From the NCBI GenBank assembly GCA_036496605.1, contig DASXKV010000019.1:1-33429 (forward strand): a stretch of DNA of 33,429 nt, in the 5' to 3' direction. Under the pieces are notes generated by a model. That model saw only the letters and a program-made list of their open reading frames with translations, ran no database searches and had not been told where the DNA came from. Source of the stretch: Gemmatimonadaceae bacterium (GTDB lineage: Bacteria; Gemmatimonadota; Gemmatimonadetes; Gemmatimonadales; Gemmatimonadaceae). A program made the position numbers and the translations under genes. Shown here one piece after another: positions 10,895 to 15,023 of this stretch; position 1 is the first letter of the stretch, and each line of letters opens with the position of its first letter.

Positions 10895-11182
10895 TCACTC
10901 ATCGACCTGCACCGCGCGCGAGAGTCCGATCACATGCCAAAAAATGTCTCGGACTTTCTCGTCACTGAGCCCAGCGTCTCTCGCAATCCCGGCCGCGCGG
11001 CGGATGACCTCCGCTTCGCGAGCCGGATCGAGCGTCGGCAGCCCCGCGACCTTCTTCATCGCACCGATCTCCTTGCTCAGTGCGACGCGCTTCGCCAGCA
11101 GCCCGACCAGCTCGCGGTCGAGCGCCTCGATCTGCTGACGACATTTGCCGAGCGCGTCGAGCGCCGTATCGGGTGAGGTCAT
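10895..11182 (-). CDS. Chorismate mutase (AroQ class)
   Basis: A 95-residue all-helical enzyme that converts chorismate to prephenate, the first step toward Phe and Tyr. The AroQ pattern is visible: CRQQIEALDRELVGLLAKR (helix 1, with the conserved Arg), ALSKEIGAMKK (catalytic Lys region) and REAEVIRRAAGIARDAGLSD before the last helix with IFWHVIGLSR. The length is that of a free-standing monofunctional domain. Its start overlaps the DAHP synthase stop by four bases (ATGA), so the two are translationally coupled. It is therefore likely under the same tyrosine attenuator. Confidence 0.92.
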   Translation of the reverse strand: MTSPDTALDALGKCRQQIEALDRELVGLLAKRVALSKEIGAMKKVAGLPTLDPAREAEVIRRAAGIARDAGLSDEKVRDIFWHVIGLSRAVQVDE

Positions 11183-12252
11183 GCTGCGGCTCCCGTCGCG
11201 TCGTCGCGCGATCCACCTAACGAGCGGCCGGCGGCCTCGGCGAACGCGGCCAGGCGCGCCATGAGCGATCGGAATCCCTCGAACGACAGCGATTGATCGC
11301 CGTCAGACAACGCATTGGCGGGATCCGGATGAACCTCGATAATGAGTCCGTCGGCGCCAGCCGCGATGGAAGCGAACGAAAGTGGCGCGACGAGATCGGC
11401 GACGCCGCCGGCGTGACTCGGGTCAACGATCACCGGCAGGTGCGTCTCGCGCTTGAGCACCGGAACGGCGGCGACGTCGAGGGTATTCCGCGTCGCCTGC
11501 TCGAAGGTCCGGATCCCGCGCTCGCACAGCACCACGTCGCGATTTCCCTGCGCCATGATATACTCGGCGGCCATGAGTAACTCCTTAATGGTCGCCGAAA
11601 GACCACGTTTAAGTAATATGGGCCGCTTGACGCGACCGAGCTCCGACAGCAACGAAAAGTTCTGCATGTTGCGCGCGCCGACCTGGAGCATGTCCGCGTG
11701 CTCGGCGACGCTGTCGATCTGACGCGGGTCCATCACCTCGGTGACGACCGGCATGCCCGTGCTGCGTCGCACCTCGGCGAGCATTTTGAGCGCCGTATTG
11801 CCGAGACCCTGGAATGCGTAGGGGGAGGTGCGCGGTTTGAACGCCCCGCCGCGGAGCATCACGCCGCCTGCGTCGCGCACCGCTTCGGCGCTCTCGCGCA
11901 ACATTTCAGGTCCTTCTACCGAGCAAGGGCCTGCTATGACGGCGATCGCTCGCCCGCCGAACGCAGCGACGCGGCTCGGGTGCGAGGGATCGTCGCCAAC
12001 GCGCACGATGGTCGGCGCCGCCGCGAACTCGCGCGACGCGAGCTTGTAGGGCTTGAGCACCGGCACGACGTCCTCGACGCCGGGCATCGAACGCAGCGGG
12101 ACCTCGGCGAGCAGCGATTCGTCGCCAATGCAGCCGATGATGGTGCGCTCGACGCCGCGCGAGAGATGGGTGCGCATGCCACGTTGCTCGATGCGCTCGC
12201 GAATGGCGTCGAGCTCGGCGTCGGAGATGTTCGCGCGGGTGATGATGATCAA
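11179..12252 (-). CDS. aroF: DAHP synthase (type I beta, regulated form)
   Basis: A 357-residue 3-deoxy-7-phosphoheptulonate synthase that joins PEP and erythrose 4-phosphate at the head of the shikimate pathway. Residues 1-70 form a ferredoxin/ACT-like regulatory domain ([29 protein letters not shown]) like that of Thermotoga DAHPS, where it mediates Tyr/Phe feedback inhibition. The barrel follows with [58 protein letters not shown] and VDPSHAGG. The start is TTG at 12252, fixed by the expected N-terminus MIIITR. The Shine-Dalgarno is weak. It is the first structural gene after the leader peptide and terminator, so expression should depend on read-through. Confidence 0.93.
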
Positions 12253-12285: not shown

Positions 12286-12315
12286 AAAAAAGCGGCCCGG
12301 AGGTCCGGGCCGCTT
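12286..12315 (-). terminator. Intrinsic terminator of the aroF leader (attenuator)
   Basis: Read on the minus strand, AAGCGGCCCGGA-CC-TCCGGGCCGCTT is a perfect 12-bp inverted repeat (12290-12315) followed by six T residues (12286-12291). It lies 23 bases after the leader stop codon and 33 bases before the aroF start. Because it stands upstream of the operon and just after a leader peptide, it should act as an attenuator. The opposite orientation lacks a T-tract. Confidence 0.9.
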
Positions 12316-12377
12316 GGAGATTCGTGTGTGCTAATCGACTACCTGGTCGTGCGCACGCCTCCACTGTCGGCCCCGGA
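12290..12377 (-). promoter_or_regulatory. Antiterminator pairing region of the aroF attenuator
   Basis: The leader mRNA segment TCCGGGGCCG (12368-12377) is complementary to CGGCCCGGA in the 5' arm of the terminator: six contiguous pairs, then four more after a bulged G. Forming this pairing would prevent the terminator. The segment begins nine bases after the last leader Tyr codon. A ribosome stalled at the first Tyr codons would leave it free to pair. A second candidate hairpin (CGACagTGG pairing with CCAggtaGTCG) overlaps the leader stop codon and might favour termination when translation is complete. Confidence 0.65.
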
Positions 12378-12425
12378 AAGGGTCGCATAGTAGTAATAGC
12401 CGTAATACTTGGCGCGGATCGACAT
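12339..12425 (-). CDS. Tyrosine-rich leader peptide of the aroF operon
   Basis: A 28-codon open frame from ATG (12425) to TAG (12339-12341). Codons 7-13 (12387-12407) encode YYGYYYY, six tyrosines in seven residues, with no Phe or Trp in the peptide. Such a run just before a terminator and an aromatic biosynthesis gene is the hallmark of ribosome-mediated attenuation: low charged tRNA-Tyr stalls the ribosome and allows read-through into the operon. There is no Shine-Dalgarno, and the promoter spacing puts the transcription start on the A of ATG, so it should be translated as a leaderless message. The same frame is open further upstream only as a shadow of the divergent permease gene. Confidence 0.82.
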   Translation of the reverse strand: MSIRAKYYGYYYYATLSGADSGGVRTTR

Positions 12426-12431
12426 GGGCCG

Positions 12432-12461
12432 AGAATAGCACACCGGACGCATCCCGGTCAA
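12432..12461 (-). promoter_or_regulatory. Promoter of the aroF leader/operon
   Basis: On the minus strand TTGACC (12456-12461) and TATTCT (12432-12437) have an 18-base spacer, a good match to a housekeeping promoter. Six bases separate the -10 box from the leader ATG, which predicts a transcript beginning at or within a base of the start codon. The promoter lies in the divergent gap shared with the permease gene (12528). Confidence 0.7.
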
Positions 12462-12527: not shown

Positions 12528-15023
12528 ATGATAGAGAATCAAGAAGTGAGATACGTCCTTCGCTCTCTGCGGCGATCGCCGTTGTTCACGACGACCGTCG
12601 TGCTGACGCTCGCGCTCGGGATCGGTGTGACGACCTCCATTTTCGGCATCGTGAACGCCGTGTTGCTGCGACCGTTGCCGTATCCGGACTCTGACCGGCT
12701 CGTCGAGCCGTATCACACGCTGCTTGCAATCGGCATCCCCACCGCAGCGCAATCGCGCGGGACGTACTTCCACTATTCGCGCACTGTCCATTCGCTGCAG
12801 TCGATCGCGGCATCGTCTCCGACGACGGTGAATCTCGCCGACGCAAGCGCCACCAGCGAACCGGAGCGCATCAGCGCCGCCCGCGTCACCGCCAATCTGC
12901 TGACGACGCTTCGCGTGCTGCCGGAGCGCGGCCGCGGATTTACGGCGAACGAGGATCTGCCTAACGGCGCTCGCGTCGTACTGATCGGCGACGGTCTCTG
13001 GCACCGCCGCTTCGGCGCCGACCCTTCGATTCTTTCGCGCGACATCCGCATCGACGGGAACATCTATCGGATCGTCGGGGTGATGCCCTCGAGCTTCCAC
13101 TATCCGGATCCACTGGTCGAGCTCTGGGTGCCGATGCAGCTCGACCCGGCTGCGCGTGACGCCCAGGGCTTCGGCATCGTCGGGGTCGCGCGTCTCGCAC
13201 CCAACGCGACGATCGCGAGCGCCGAGCGGGAGCTCAACACGCAGCTGACGCGGCTGCCGGAATCCTACCCGAACATCTATCCGGGCTTGCCGACGGACAA
13301 GCTGTTGGCGCAGGCGAGCGCACGGGCTGCGGTGCACTCACTCCGCGACAGCGTCGTCGGCAATTTCGCCAGCATCCTCTGGGTCGTGGCGGCGACGGTC
13401 TGTCTCGTGCTCGTCGTCACCTGTGCGAACGTCGTGAATCTCCTGCTGGTTCGCTCGCAAGGACGAGCGCGAGAGGTCGCGGTGCGTGCCGCGTTAGGCG
13501 CGAGCCGACGCCGCCTTCTGGCGCTGTTCGTGACCGAGGCAGCGGTCCTGGCGACGGGTGGTGCGATCGTTGGCCTTGGAATCGCGGAGCTCACGACCCA
13601 GCTGCTCCTGCGTGCTGGCCCGACGACCATTCCGCGCTGGGACGAGATTGGAGTGGACGGCACCAGCTTCGCGTTCACGTTAGGCATCACGATACTCGTG
13701 GCGCTCACCTGCAGCGTCTTCCCGGCACTGCGGTATCGGTCGATGCGATTCACCGCGCTGCTCCGCGAGGGAGGACGCACGGGCACGGTCGGCCGCGAGC
13801 GACATCGGGCACAACGAACGCTCATCGTCATCCAGGTCGCTCTGGCGTTGCTGCTTCTGGCCGGCTGCGGGTTGTTGACGCGCACGGTGTCCCAGCTGAG
13901 CAAGGTCAAGCCAGGCTTCGATCCTTCGCAGACATTGGCTTTCGCTGTATCGCTGCCGGCTGGACAGTTCCCGAGGCTGGCGATGGCCTCGCAGTTCTAC
14001 CTCGACGTGATGGATCGGCTGCGTGCACTCCCTGGCGTCGAGGCGGTGGGCGCGGTGTCGAAGCTTCCGCTGCGAGCAGCGTCGCCTCTCGTCCCGGTCT
14101 ATCTGGAACACTTTCCCGTCGCGCCGGGAACACTGCCGCATGTATTCCCCTTTCCGGTCGCCAGCGCCGGATACTTTCAGGCGATGCACATTCGCTTGCT
14201 CGCAGGCCGGTTGTTTCCGGATCGGTTGCCGACAGCCGCGCCGCAAGAAGTCGTCGTAAGTAGAGCGTTTGCTGAACAGTATTGGCACGACTCGACCGGA
14301 CGCCGCGCGCTAGGCGAACGCCTCAAGGTCTCTACGTCCGAGACGGTGCCCTGGTCCACCGTCGTCGGCGTCGTCGAGAGCGTTCGCGACACGTCGCTCG
14401 CCGGACCGCCCATCGCCGAGGTCTACTCTCCTCTCCGCCCACTCGACCCGGCGACGGCCGACAGCCTCGCGCCCTTCACGCCGCGCGTGATGAGCATTGT
14501 GGTGCGGGCGAGCGGTGACCCGCTGACGCTTGCATCGGCCGTACGGCGGCAGGTGTTCGCCCTGAACGCGAGCGTTCCGATCTTCGACGTGCAGCCGATG
14601 ACTGCCGTCCTCGAACGAGTCTCGTCGCAGACGCGGTTCGCGTTATTGGCGCTCGGTGCCGCGGCGGCGATCACGCTCGTGCTCGGCGCGCTCGGGCTGT
14701 ATGGCGTGATCGCCTATGTCGTGAGCCTGCGCACGCGCGAGCTCGGCCTCCGCATGGCGTTAGGCGCCGAGCCGTCGGCCGTGCTCGGGCTCGTGCTACG
14801 CGACGGCGTCACCCTCGCGGCCATCGGCATCGTGGCGGGGCTCGCGGCGTTCGCAGTGGTCGGGCGATTTCTCCGTGGGTTGCTGTTCGGCGTCGCGCCT
14901 GACGATCCAGCGACGCTGCTCTCGGTCGTGGCGGTGATCGTGCTGGTTGCCGCGGTCGCGAGCTGGCTGCCCGCGTGGCGCGCGTCGCGCATCGATCCGC
15001 TGGAGGCGCTGCGCCTCGAGTGA
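12528..15023 (+). CDS. Orphan MacB/FtsX-type ABC permease (ADOP family)
   Basis: An 831-residue duplicated permease. It starts VRYVLRSLRRSPLFTTT and the first membrane helix (VVLTLALGIGVTTSIFGIVN) is followed by VLLRPLPYPDSDRLV, the signature of the acidobacterial-type duplicated orphan permeases. A MacB-like periplasmic core lies at about 60-250. A first FtsX block of three helices spans about 280-420 (with ANVVNLLLVRSQGRAREVAVRAALGASRR). A second periplasmic core and a second FtsX block close the protein (SLRTRELGLRMALGAEPSAV). No ATPase gene is adjacent. ATG 12528 is preceded by GAGGAG. Some relatives carry an N-terminal PadR-associated helix, which is absent here. The substrate is unknown. 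Confidence 0.93.
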   Translation: MIENQEVRYVLRSLRRSPLFTTTVVLTLALGIGVTTSIFGIVNAVLLRPLPYPDSDRLVEPYHTLLAIGIPTAAQSRGTYFHYSRTVHSLQSIAASSPTTVNLADASATSEPERISAARVTANLLTTLRVLPERGRGFTANEDLPNGARVVLIGDGLWHRRFGADPSILSRDIRIDGNIYRIVGVMPSSFHYPDPLVELWVPMQLDPAARDAQGFGIVGVARLAPNATIASAERELNTQLTRLPESYPNIYPGLPTDKLLAQASARAAVHSLRDSVVGNFASILWVVAATVCLVLVVTCANVVNLLLVRSQGRAREVAVRAALGASRRRLLALFVTEAAVLATGGAIVGLGIAELTTQLLLRAGPTTIPRWDEIGVDGTSFAFTLGITILVALTCSVFPALRYRSMRFTALLREGGRTGTVGRERHRAQRTLIVIQVALALLLLAGCGLLTRTVSQLSKVKPGFDPSQTLAFAVSLPAGQFPRLAMASQFYLDVMDRLRALPGVEAVGAVSKLPLRAASPLVPVYLEHFPVAPGTLPHVFPFPVASAGYFQAMHIRLLAGRLFPDRLPTAAPQEVVVSRAFAEQYWHDSTGRRALGERLKVSTSETVPWSTVVGVVESVRDTSLAGPPIAEVYSPLRPLDPATADSLAPFTPRVMSIVVRASGDPLTLASAVRRQVFALNASVPIFDVQPMTAVLERVSSQTRFALLALGAAAAITLVLGALGLYGVIAYVVSLRTRELGLRMALGAEPSAVLGLVLRDGVTLAAIGIVAGLAAFAVVGRFLRGLLFGVAPDDPATLLSVVAVIVLVAAVASWLPAWRASRIDPLEALRLE

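Follow-up and report, generated by a model that had tools for sequence, protein, structure and literature searches.

The aroF locus and its leader element

In the window, i.e. the whole stretch of 33,429 nucleotides of Gemmatimonadaceae DNA that was analysed, the gene for a DAHP synthase (aroF) is followed on the minus strand by the gene for a chorismate mutase and preceded by a short leader element, the parts of which are the following:

12456..12461, minus strand: -35 box, sequence TTGACC
12432..12437, minus strand: -10 box TATTCT with TG directly before, ending 6 nt ahead of the ATG
12339..12425, minus strand: leader ORF of 28 codons plus stop (ATG at 12425, TAG at 12339), MSIRAKYYGYYYYATLSGADSGGVRTTR
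12387..12407, minus strand: control codons YYGYYYY (codons 7-13), relatives being rich in Tyr, Phe and Trp here
12380..12386, minus strand: segment 1, GCGACCC, candidate anti-antiterminator, a weak hairpin being possible with segment 2
12368..12377, minus strand: segment 2, TCCGGGGCCG, putative antiterminator strand within the leader ORF, pairing with the terminator 5' arm in a helix that covaries
12351..12357, minus strand: CGTNCGC motif close to the leader stop, conserved in alignment A1
12305..12315, minus strand: segment 3, 5' arm of the terminator
12286..12300, minus strand: segment 4, 3' arm of the terminator plus T run
11179..12252, minus strand: aroF, type I-beta DAHP synthase, start codon TTG
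10895..11182, minus strand: chorismate mutase type II (AroQ), overlapping the aroF stop

As an earlier sequence-only reading of this DNA had proposed, a -10 box ends six bases before an ATG, a 28-codon peptide with YYGYYYY is encoded at 12425-12339, and the DAHP synthase (12252-11179) and chorismate mutase (11182-10895) genes follow the terminator as an operon. All of these features lie on the minus strand. The perfect 12-bp terminator with six Ts had to be amended, as the six T are present but the GC-rich stem comprises 11 bp closed by a 4-nt loop (12315-12290; -23.2 kcal/mol); similarly, the segment said to be complementary to the terminator 5' arm does pair with it, at about -17 kcal/mol, but with one bulge in the duplex. 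An 18-nt spacer separates TTGACC from TATTCT, and the transcript should begin at, or just beside, the A of the ATG, which would make it leaderless. At least six Tyr in seven codons occur at one place in the window and nowhere in 60 mononucleotide shuffles; this rare run, together with an architecture recurring upstream of 46 aroF genes, makes the element more than a product of chance.

The N-terminal domain of AroF, with a putative role in feedback, corresponds to the Pfam family DAHP_snth_FXD (ferredoxin-like), and a second DAHP synthase gene of the same genome, 49% identical, is devoid of such a leader. On the other side of the leader, a gene for a duplicated permease of the ADOP family (window 12528-15023, plus strand) is divergently oriented; its start and that of the leader are about 100 bp apart, both promoters thus lying in one short intergenic region.

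Two covariance models, namely R1 built from 45 aroF leaders and R2, a second model whose additional matches were mainly his leaders, returned the aroF element as the sole strong match in its own genome (E about 7e-20 with R1). It was also the only element retrieved there by the pattern GGGCC...GGCCC...GGGCC plus a T run, a pattern that is specific yet does not capture leaders built on other stems, e.g. that of leuA. Two weak R1/R2 matches in this genome are both Leu leaders. Upstream of leuA, the Leu leader MHRANLLLLSSALGLLGRG (L061, contig C38 near 17500; MHRANLLLLSSALGLLGRGLLCMGGKERTE) is accompanied by an antiterminator and a terminator, the in-ORF ATGGGAGGG pairing with CCCTCCCAT of the terminator. 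Besides, a Leu-rich leader MHNARTLLLSSALGLLGRG (L175, contig C30:123434-123591, minus strand) is a near-copy of the leuA leader with its terminator present; no recognised amino-acid gene was found downstream of it, and it is perhaps an orphan copy. The GGCCCGTG/CACGGGCC stem is also encountered in unrelated terminators of the same genome, as partial model matches.

Conservation of the aroF leader in Gemmatimonadaceae

A protein search of 118 Gemmatimonadaceae genomes, combined with retrieval of upstream DNA, yielded the upstream sequence of about 50 aroF orthologues, at 46 of which a leader of the same plan could be placed. These upstream regions were where the sequence-only reading had suggested looking for conserved Tyr runs and covarying stems: leader, terminator and covarying stems were indeed recovered, but with Tyr mixed with Phe and Trp. 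In the relatives, some 17-18 nt separate TTGAC from a -10 box, which mostly ends 6-7 nt before the start. The leaders measure 23-31 codons in the 45 aligned relatives, one being longer, the terminator stem begins 17-44 nt past the leader stop (46 leaders), and a Shine-Dalgarno-like sequence is found in a single one of 45 leaders.

Ahead of the antiterminator, the 45 leaders contain 165 Tyr, 67 Phe and 11 Trp residues; ten are Tyr-only, 24 combine Tyr and Phe, ten have all three residues and one has Tyr and Trp, the run of the closest relative (AroF 93% identical) being YYSYYF. Since the relatives mix Tyr with Phe and in some cases Trp, the Tyr-only run is best regarded as a local state of an aromatic leader, and the conserved or ancestral signal of the aroF leaders is probably aromatic supply. 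The core of the leaderless attenuator initially proposed finds strong support in conservation, in covariation of the terminator and antiterminator and, most of all, in the codon swaps, while its Tyr-only character holds in this genome and not in the family.

In five aroF orthologues (L051, L053, L054, L134 and L169), the N-terminal regulatory domain is apparently lacking and aromatic leaders are still present; transcript control may persist there where enzyme feedback may be lost. The C-terminal end of the leader peptide is basic in many relatives. As for the CGTNCGC motif (CGTNCGCG; 12351-12357, columns 88-95 of alignment A1), the frame in which it is read differs between clades; a role as an RNA polymerase pause site or as the 3' strand of an outer hairpin is possible, as is base-pairing with the beginning of the run of control codons.

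Pairing and covariation of the terminator and antiterminator

Over the 45 aligned aroF leaders, 92.5% of the cells of the terminator helix are paired and nine of its 12 pairs have changed on both sides, and the antiterminator, composed of CACGGGCC in the ORF and the terminator 5' arm, is paired in 89.3% of cells with five pairs changed on both sides. Shifting the partner by one column lowered pairing to at most 43-45%. When 68 leaders of several specificities were considered, 85.8% of the antiterminator cells were paired and 42 double changes were counted vs. 14.7 in shuffles, the covariation of the antiterminator being partly forced by that of the terminator as the 5' arm is common to both. 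In his leaders, for instance, a change from C-A-C to G-A-C is matched by G-T-G to G-T-C in the antiterminator. In all 46 leaders, the duplex of the ORF segment and the 5' arm was more stable than those of shuffled versions, with a mean of -18.9 vs. -13.3 kcal/mol, and the two strands that pair with this shared arm lie about 90 nt apart. In a sister clade, CACGGGCC is read in another frame, i.e. as SRAAG or TRAAG vs. TGR, which indicates that the segment is kept as RNA and not as peptide.

In the aroF leaders, a predicted intrinsic terminator is found between the leader ORF and the first structural gene, and the antiterminator and terminator would be mutually exclusive. The hairpin between segments 1 and 2, i.e. 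between the bases just past the control codons and the antiterminator strand, is pairable in most leaders with weak energy and weak covariation; that of the window's own leader is weak at -6.2 kcal/mol.

Leaders of the same plan upstream of other amino-acid genes

At E<=1e-6, R1 found matches in 101 of 297 Gemmatimonadota genomes, about two thirds being without a match, so that the element is either common in the phylum yet not universal or diverged beyond the reach of R1. Many of these matches are not located upstream of aroF. Following assignment of the downstream genes by Pfam on representatives and then by tblastn to those, 131 of the 134 model matches examined were seen to precede an amino-acid gene. 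Prephenate dehydratase genes are headed by Phe-rich leaders (SHFCFIFFF, FTFAFFFF), and genes for a biopterin-dependent aromatic hydroxylase, which was equated with phenylalanine 4-hydroxylase, by Tyr-rich ones (SYSYRYYY, SYYSTYYY); Tyr leaders are also found at prephenate dehydrogenase (tyrA) operons; His leaders (HHDTHHHH) precede hisG and Thr leaders (TTTTTRVTTTT) aspartokinase. Another putative aspartokinase leader (L164) turned out to be a false positive on inspection and was left out of the codon-gene count.

The agreement between codons and genes was quantified over 174 distinct leaders, for which the cognate-codon statistic amounted to 622 vs. 272 +/- 23 in 10,000 label permutations (z about 15), the observed value being never reached. 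The top residue was His in all 48 his leaders, Tyr in 24 of 25 hydroxylase leaders and Phe in 11 of 14 dehydratase leaders. Even closely related aromatic residues are kept apart, with 23.9% Phe vs. 3.8% Tyr in prephenate dehydratase leaders and 20.2% Tyr vs. 1.2% Phe in phenylalanine hydroxylase leaders. As nothing but aromatic leaders had gone into the training of R1, the pairing of His codons with hisG or of Thr codons with aspartokinase cannot have been imposed by the model. This swap of codons following the downstream gene is the strongest evidence that the codons would act as the sensor.

Two further loci have leader-like features. One leader-like ORF with four Asn codons (SLNGNNSLN; L130) lies before an asparagine synthase gene (asnB), its start being ambiguous and a leaderless promoter not being seen at this locus. 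A model match with a Cys/Met-rich ORF (SACYCCRMMMA; L308) precedes an ATP-grasp-like gene.

Regarding promoters, 131 leaders had enough upstream sequence to be counted. In 101 of them, the distance between the end of a -10-like box and the start is 3-10 nt, vs. 17 expected in shuffles, and the combination of such a box with TTGAC 16-19 nt upstream is present in 78 vs. 0.06 expected. Shine-Dalgarno-like motifs occur in four. This promoter spacing and the near absence of Shine-Dalgarno-like motifs support predicted leaderless starts for the whole set.

Outside the phylum, R1 returned nothing at E<=1e-6 in 50 genomes reached through their aroF genes; the best match (1.9e-6) was partial and confined to the terminator end, and the rest were terminator-like partial or weak matches. 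Short Trp-, Tyr- and Phe-rich ORFs (e.g. NWYWFYYFFAPVCPLLRRT, SYYWFYYFYAPVCPLLRRT) also lie upstream of deltaproteobacterial/proteobacterial aroF genes (L206, L212, L224, L226, L240, L234); several of these ORFs share a conserved APVCPLLRR end, and they are apparently an independent aromatic leader family.

For the Gemmatimonadota, we lean slightly towards a single homologous leaderless attenuator chassis, with codons exchanged to suit aromatic, His, Thr and Leu genes, perhaps also Asn genes, and serving as a general device of amino-acid control; as part of the same joint reading, this chassis would consist of promoter, AUG, exchangeable control codons, antiterminator at a fixed distance and terminator. 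The set suggests that regulation is linked to pathway layout through the leader codons. From the Tyr leaders found at phenylalanine hydroxylase genes, it would seem that Phe is turned into Tyr in many of these bacteria; if the chassis is real, a phenylalanine hydroxylase with a Tyr-sensing leader would be a biosynthetic source of Tyr. The same RNA frame bearing different codons amounts to a natural swap experiment, and control codons could help to assign the products of unannotated amino-acid genes in poorly studied genomes.

Proposed mechanism and alternative explanations

The comparison establishes the ORF, the control codons, the terminator, the antiterminator and the promoter spacing, as well as the matching of codons to genes in the leaders of other genes. 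From these features, we infer that the transcript is leaderless, that the ribosome stalls, that termination and antitermination take place in the cell, and that the ribosome at the stop codon plays a role. The element is, with high probability, a leaderless ribosome-mediated transcription attenuator of the aroF-chorismate mutase operon, sensing Tyr in this genome. Transcription would begin at or beside the leader AUG, where a 70S ribosome would initiate without a Shine-Dalgarno site. When charged Tyr-tRNA is scarce, the ribosome would stall on YYGYYYY and cover segment 1, leaving segment 2, exposed about 16 nt downstream of the stall, to pair with the terminator 5' arm; the terminator would be blocked in this way and the aroF-chorismate mutase operon transcribed. 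When Tyr-tRNA is plentiful, the ribosome would reach the leader stop and stand between segments 2 and 3, a small hairpin perhaps capturing segment 2 behind it as in a wedge, and the terminator would form. The amino acid sensed would be Tyr here, and Tyr together with Phe, sometimes Trp, in the family. The dependence of read-through on tRNA charging is predicted from the control codons, whose match to the downstream gene supports it indirectly.

The geometry is consistent with this scheme. In 45 aroF leaders, the last aromatic codon and the GGG of the antiterminator are separated by a median of 17 nt, and GGGCC and the leader stop by a median of 23 nt (range 2-27). Given the size of the ribosome footprint, a ribosome stalled on the control codons would leave the antiterminator segment free and one at the stop would lie just beyond it. 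It had been pointed out as odd that a ribosome at the leader stop would not cover the antiterminator segment as in the classical model; the likely answer is that it would instead stand between segment 2 and the terminator arm, in keeping with the median of 23 nt.

Ribosome occupancy was simulated by partition-function folding with the footprint masked and the RNA ending before the terminator 3' arm. The mean probability of the antiterminator was 0.93 for a stall in the middle of the run, 0.78 for a stall at the last aromatic codon, 0.49 with no ribosome and 0.57 with a ribosome at the stop, the stalled state coming out above the stop state in 39 of the 45 leaders. With the leader of the window itself, equilibrium folding gave no switch, with a probability of 0.85-0.87 in every occupancy state. 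As folding does not discriminate between states in this leader and its 1:2 hairpin is weak, the off state would have to come from kinetics or else from the ribosome.

The leader might also answer general aromatic or global translation stress, any slow aromatic codon serving and the Tyr-only run resulting from drift. The free exchange of Tyr, Phe and Trp among the aroF leaders of relatives, down to YYSYYF in the sister species, speaks for this, as does the supply of all three aromatic pathways by DAHP synthase; nonetheless it seems unlikely, as the leaders of single-product genes keep one residue (Phe for prephenate dehydratase, Tyr for phenylalanine hydroxylase), which argues for discrimination between Tyr-tRNA and Phe-tRNA.

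It is highly improbable that the leader peptide acts in trans as a small protein, attenuation being secondary. A precedent is given by the Sinorhizobium attenuator peptide peTrpL, which acts in trans (PMC7298713), and the basic end of the peptide in many relatives would suit such a function. Against this, what is kept in the C-terminal part of the peptide is the RNA, the frames differing between clades.

Scarcely any weight can be given to direct control of the terminator by an RNA sensor, i.e. a T-box or Tyr riboswitch, with the ORF incidental. Aromatic genes are controlled by Tyr T-boxes in Firmicutes, but the window has no Rfam match at gathering thresholds, and what changes with the downstream gene is the codons and not a conserved aptamer. 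In ten related loci, nothing was found against Rfam apart from four matches (E<=0.5) that are weak and unrelated, and no Rfam T-box match, i.e. neither T-box core nor specifier loop, was obtained in the window or in these loci.

Finally, short ORFs and GC-rich hairpins are frequent in such genomes, but a chance encounter of a Tyr-rich ORF with the ordinary terminator of another transcript has virtually no probability left and is, as far as comparative sequence data go, already refuted by the conservation at 46 aroF loci, the covariation, the codon-gene matching and the single strong whole-model match in the genome.

The aroF element is real and its reading as an attenuator is very likely correct; of the defining features of a classical attenuator, the ORF with its codon run, the intrinsic terminator and the antiterminator were found, the 1:2 hairpin being a weak candidate, and the element is predicted to work like one.

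Comparison with known attenuators

Attenuators have been surveyed in actinobacteria for trp, ilv, leu and cys genes (PMC1262725), and a survey of 2010 reported leader-peptide systems in Proteobacteria and Actinobacteria, to which Firmicutes were added (PMC2965389). A search of the available literature found no paper linking Gemmatimonadota or Gemmatimonas to leader peptides or leaderless transcripts. The set of leaders with matched codons extends leader-peptide attenuation to this phylum, and phylum-wide matched leaderless attenuators are a more interesting result than the Tyr-only claim.

Among the closest known systems is the aroR-aroF attenuator of Corynebacterium glutamicum with its Phe-Tyr-Phe leader (Neshat et al., 2014, as described in PMC11802643 and PMC4046766). 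In both, the aromatic codons of a leader peptide come ahead of the gene for a DAHP synthase, a stall being proposed to raise read-through; unlike the actinobacterial FYF leader, the present one has YYGYYYY, a type I-beta DAHP synthase and a chorismate mutase in the operon. The aroR operon reportedly responds to Phe and not to Tyr (PMC11802643), which indicates that the response need not follow directly from the codons.

In C. glutamicum, the ilvBNC attenuator (ilvL) is leaderless, with transcription starting one nucleotide from the start codon (PMC11857589). Its model has three alternative hairpins, i.e. anti-antiterminator, antiterminator and terminator. The aroF leader resembles ilvL in its predicted leaderless start and in its antiterminator and terminator, with a weak candidate for the anti-antiterminator, and differs from it in that ilvL has branched-chain codons and an unrelated sequence; in the passages of PMC11857589 considered, no matched set of leaders of one architecture before different operons is described. 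Judging by the present set, leaderless attenuation would not be peculiar to Corynebacterium. With aroR-aroF and the leaderless ilvBNC as precedents, the claim that a Tyr-only aroF leader is undescribed is too narrow and slightly overstated (PMC11802643, PMC11857589).

Neither the window nor ten related loci matched the His_leader, Phe_leader, Thr_leader, Trp_leader or Leu_leader models of Rfam. In the classical trp, phe, his and thr leaders of Proteobacteria, a 5' untranslated region provides a ribosome-binding site. The aroF leader resembles these classical leaders in its run of control codons, in the mutually exclusive 2:3 and 3:4 hairpins and in the cognate biosynthetic genes downstream; unlike them, it appears to be leaderless and has segment 2 inside the ORF, about 20-23 nt before the stop.
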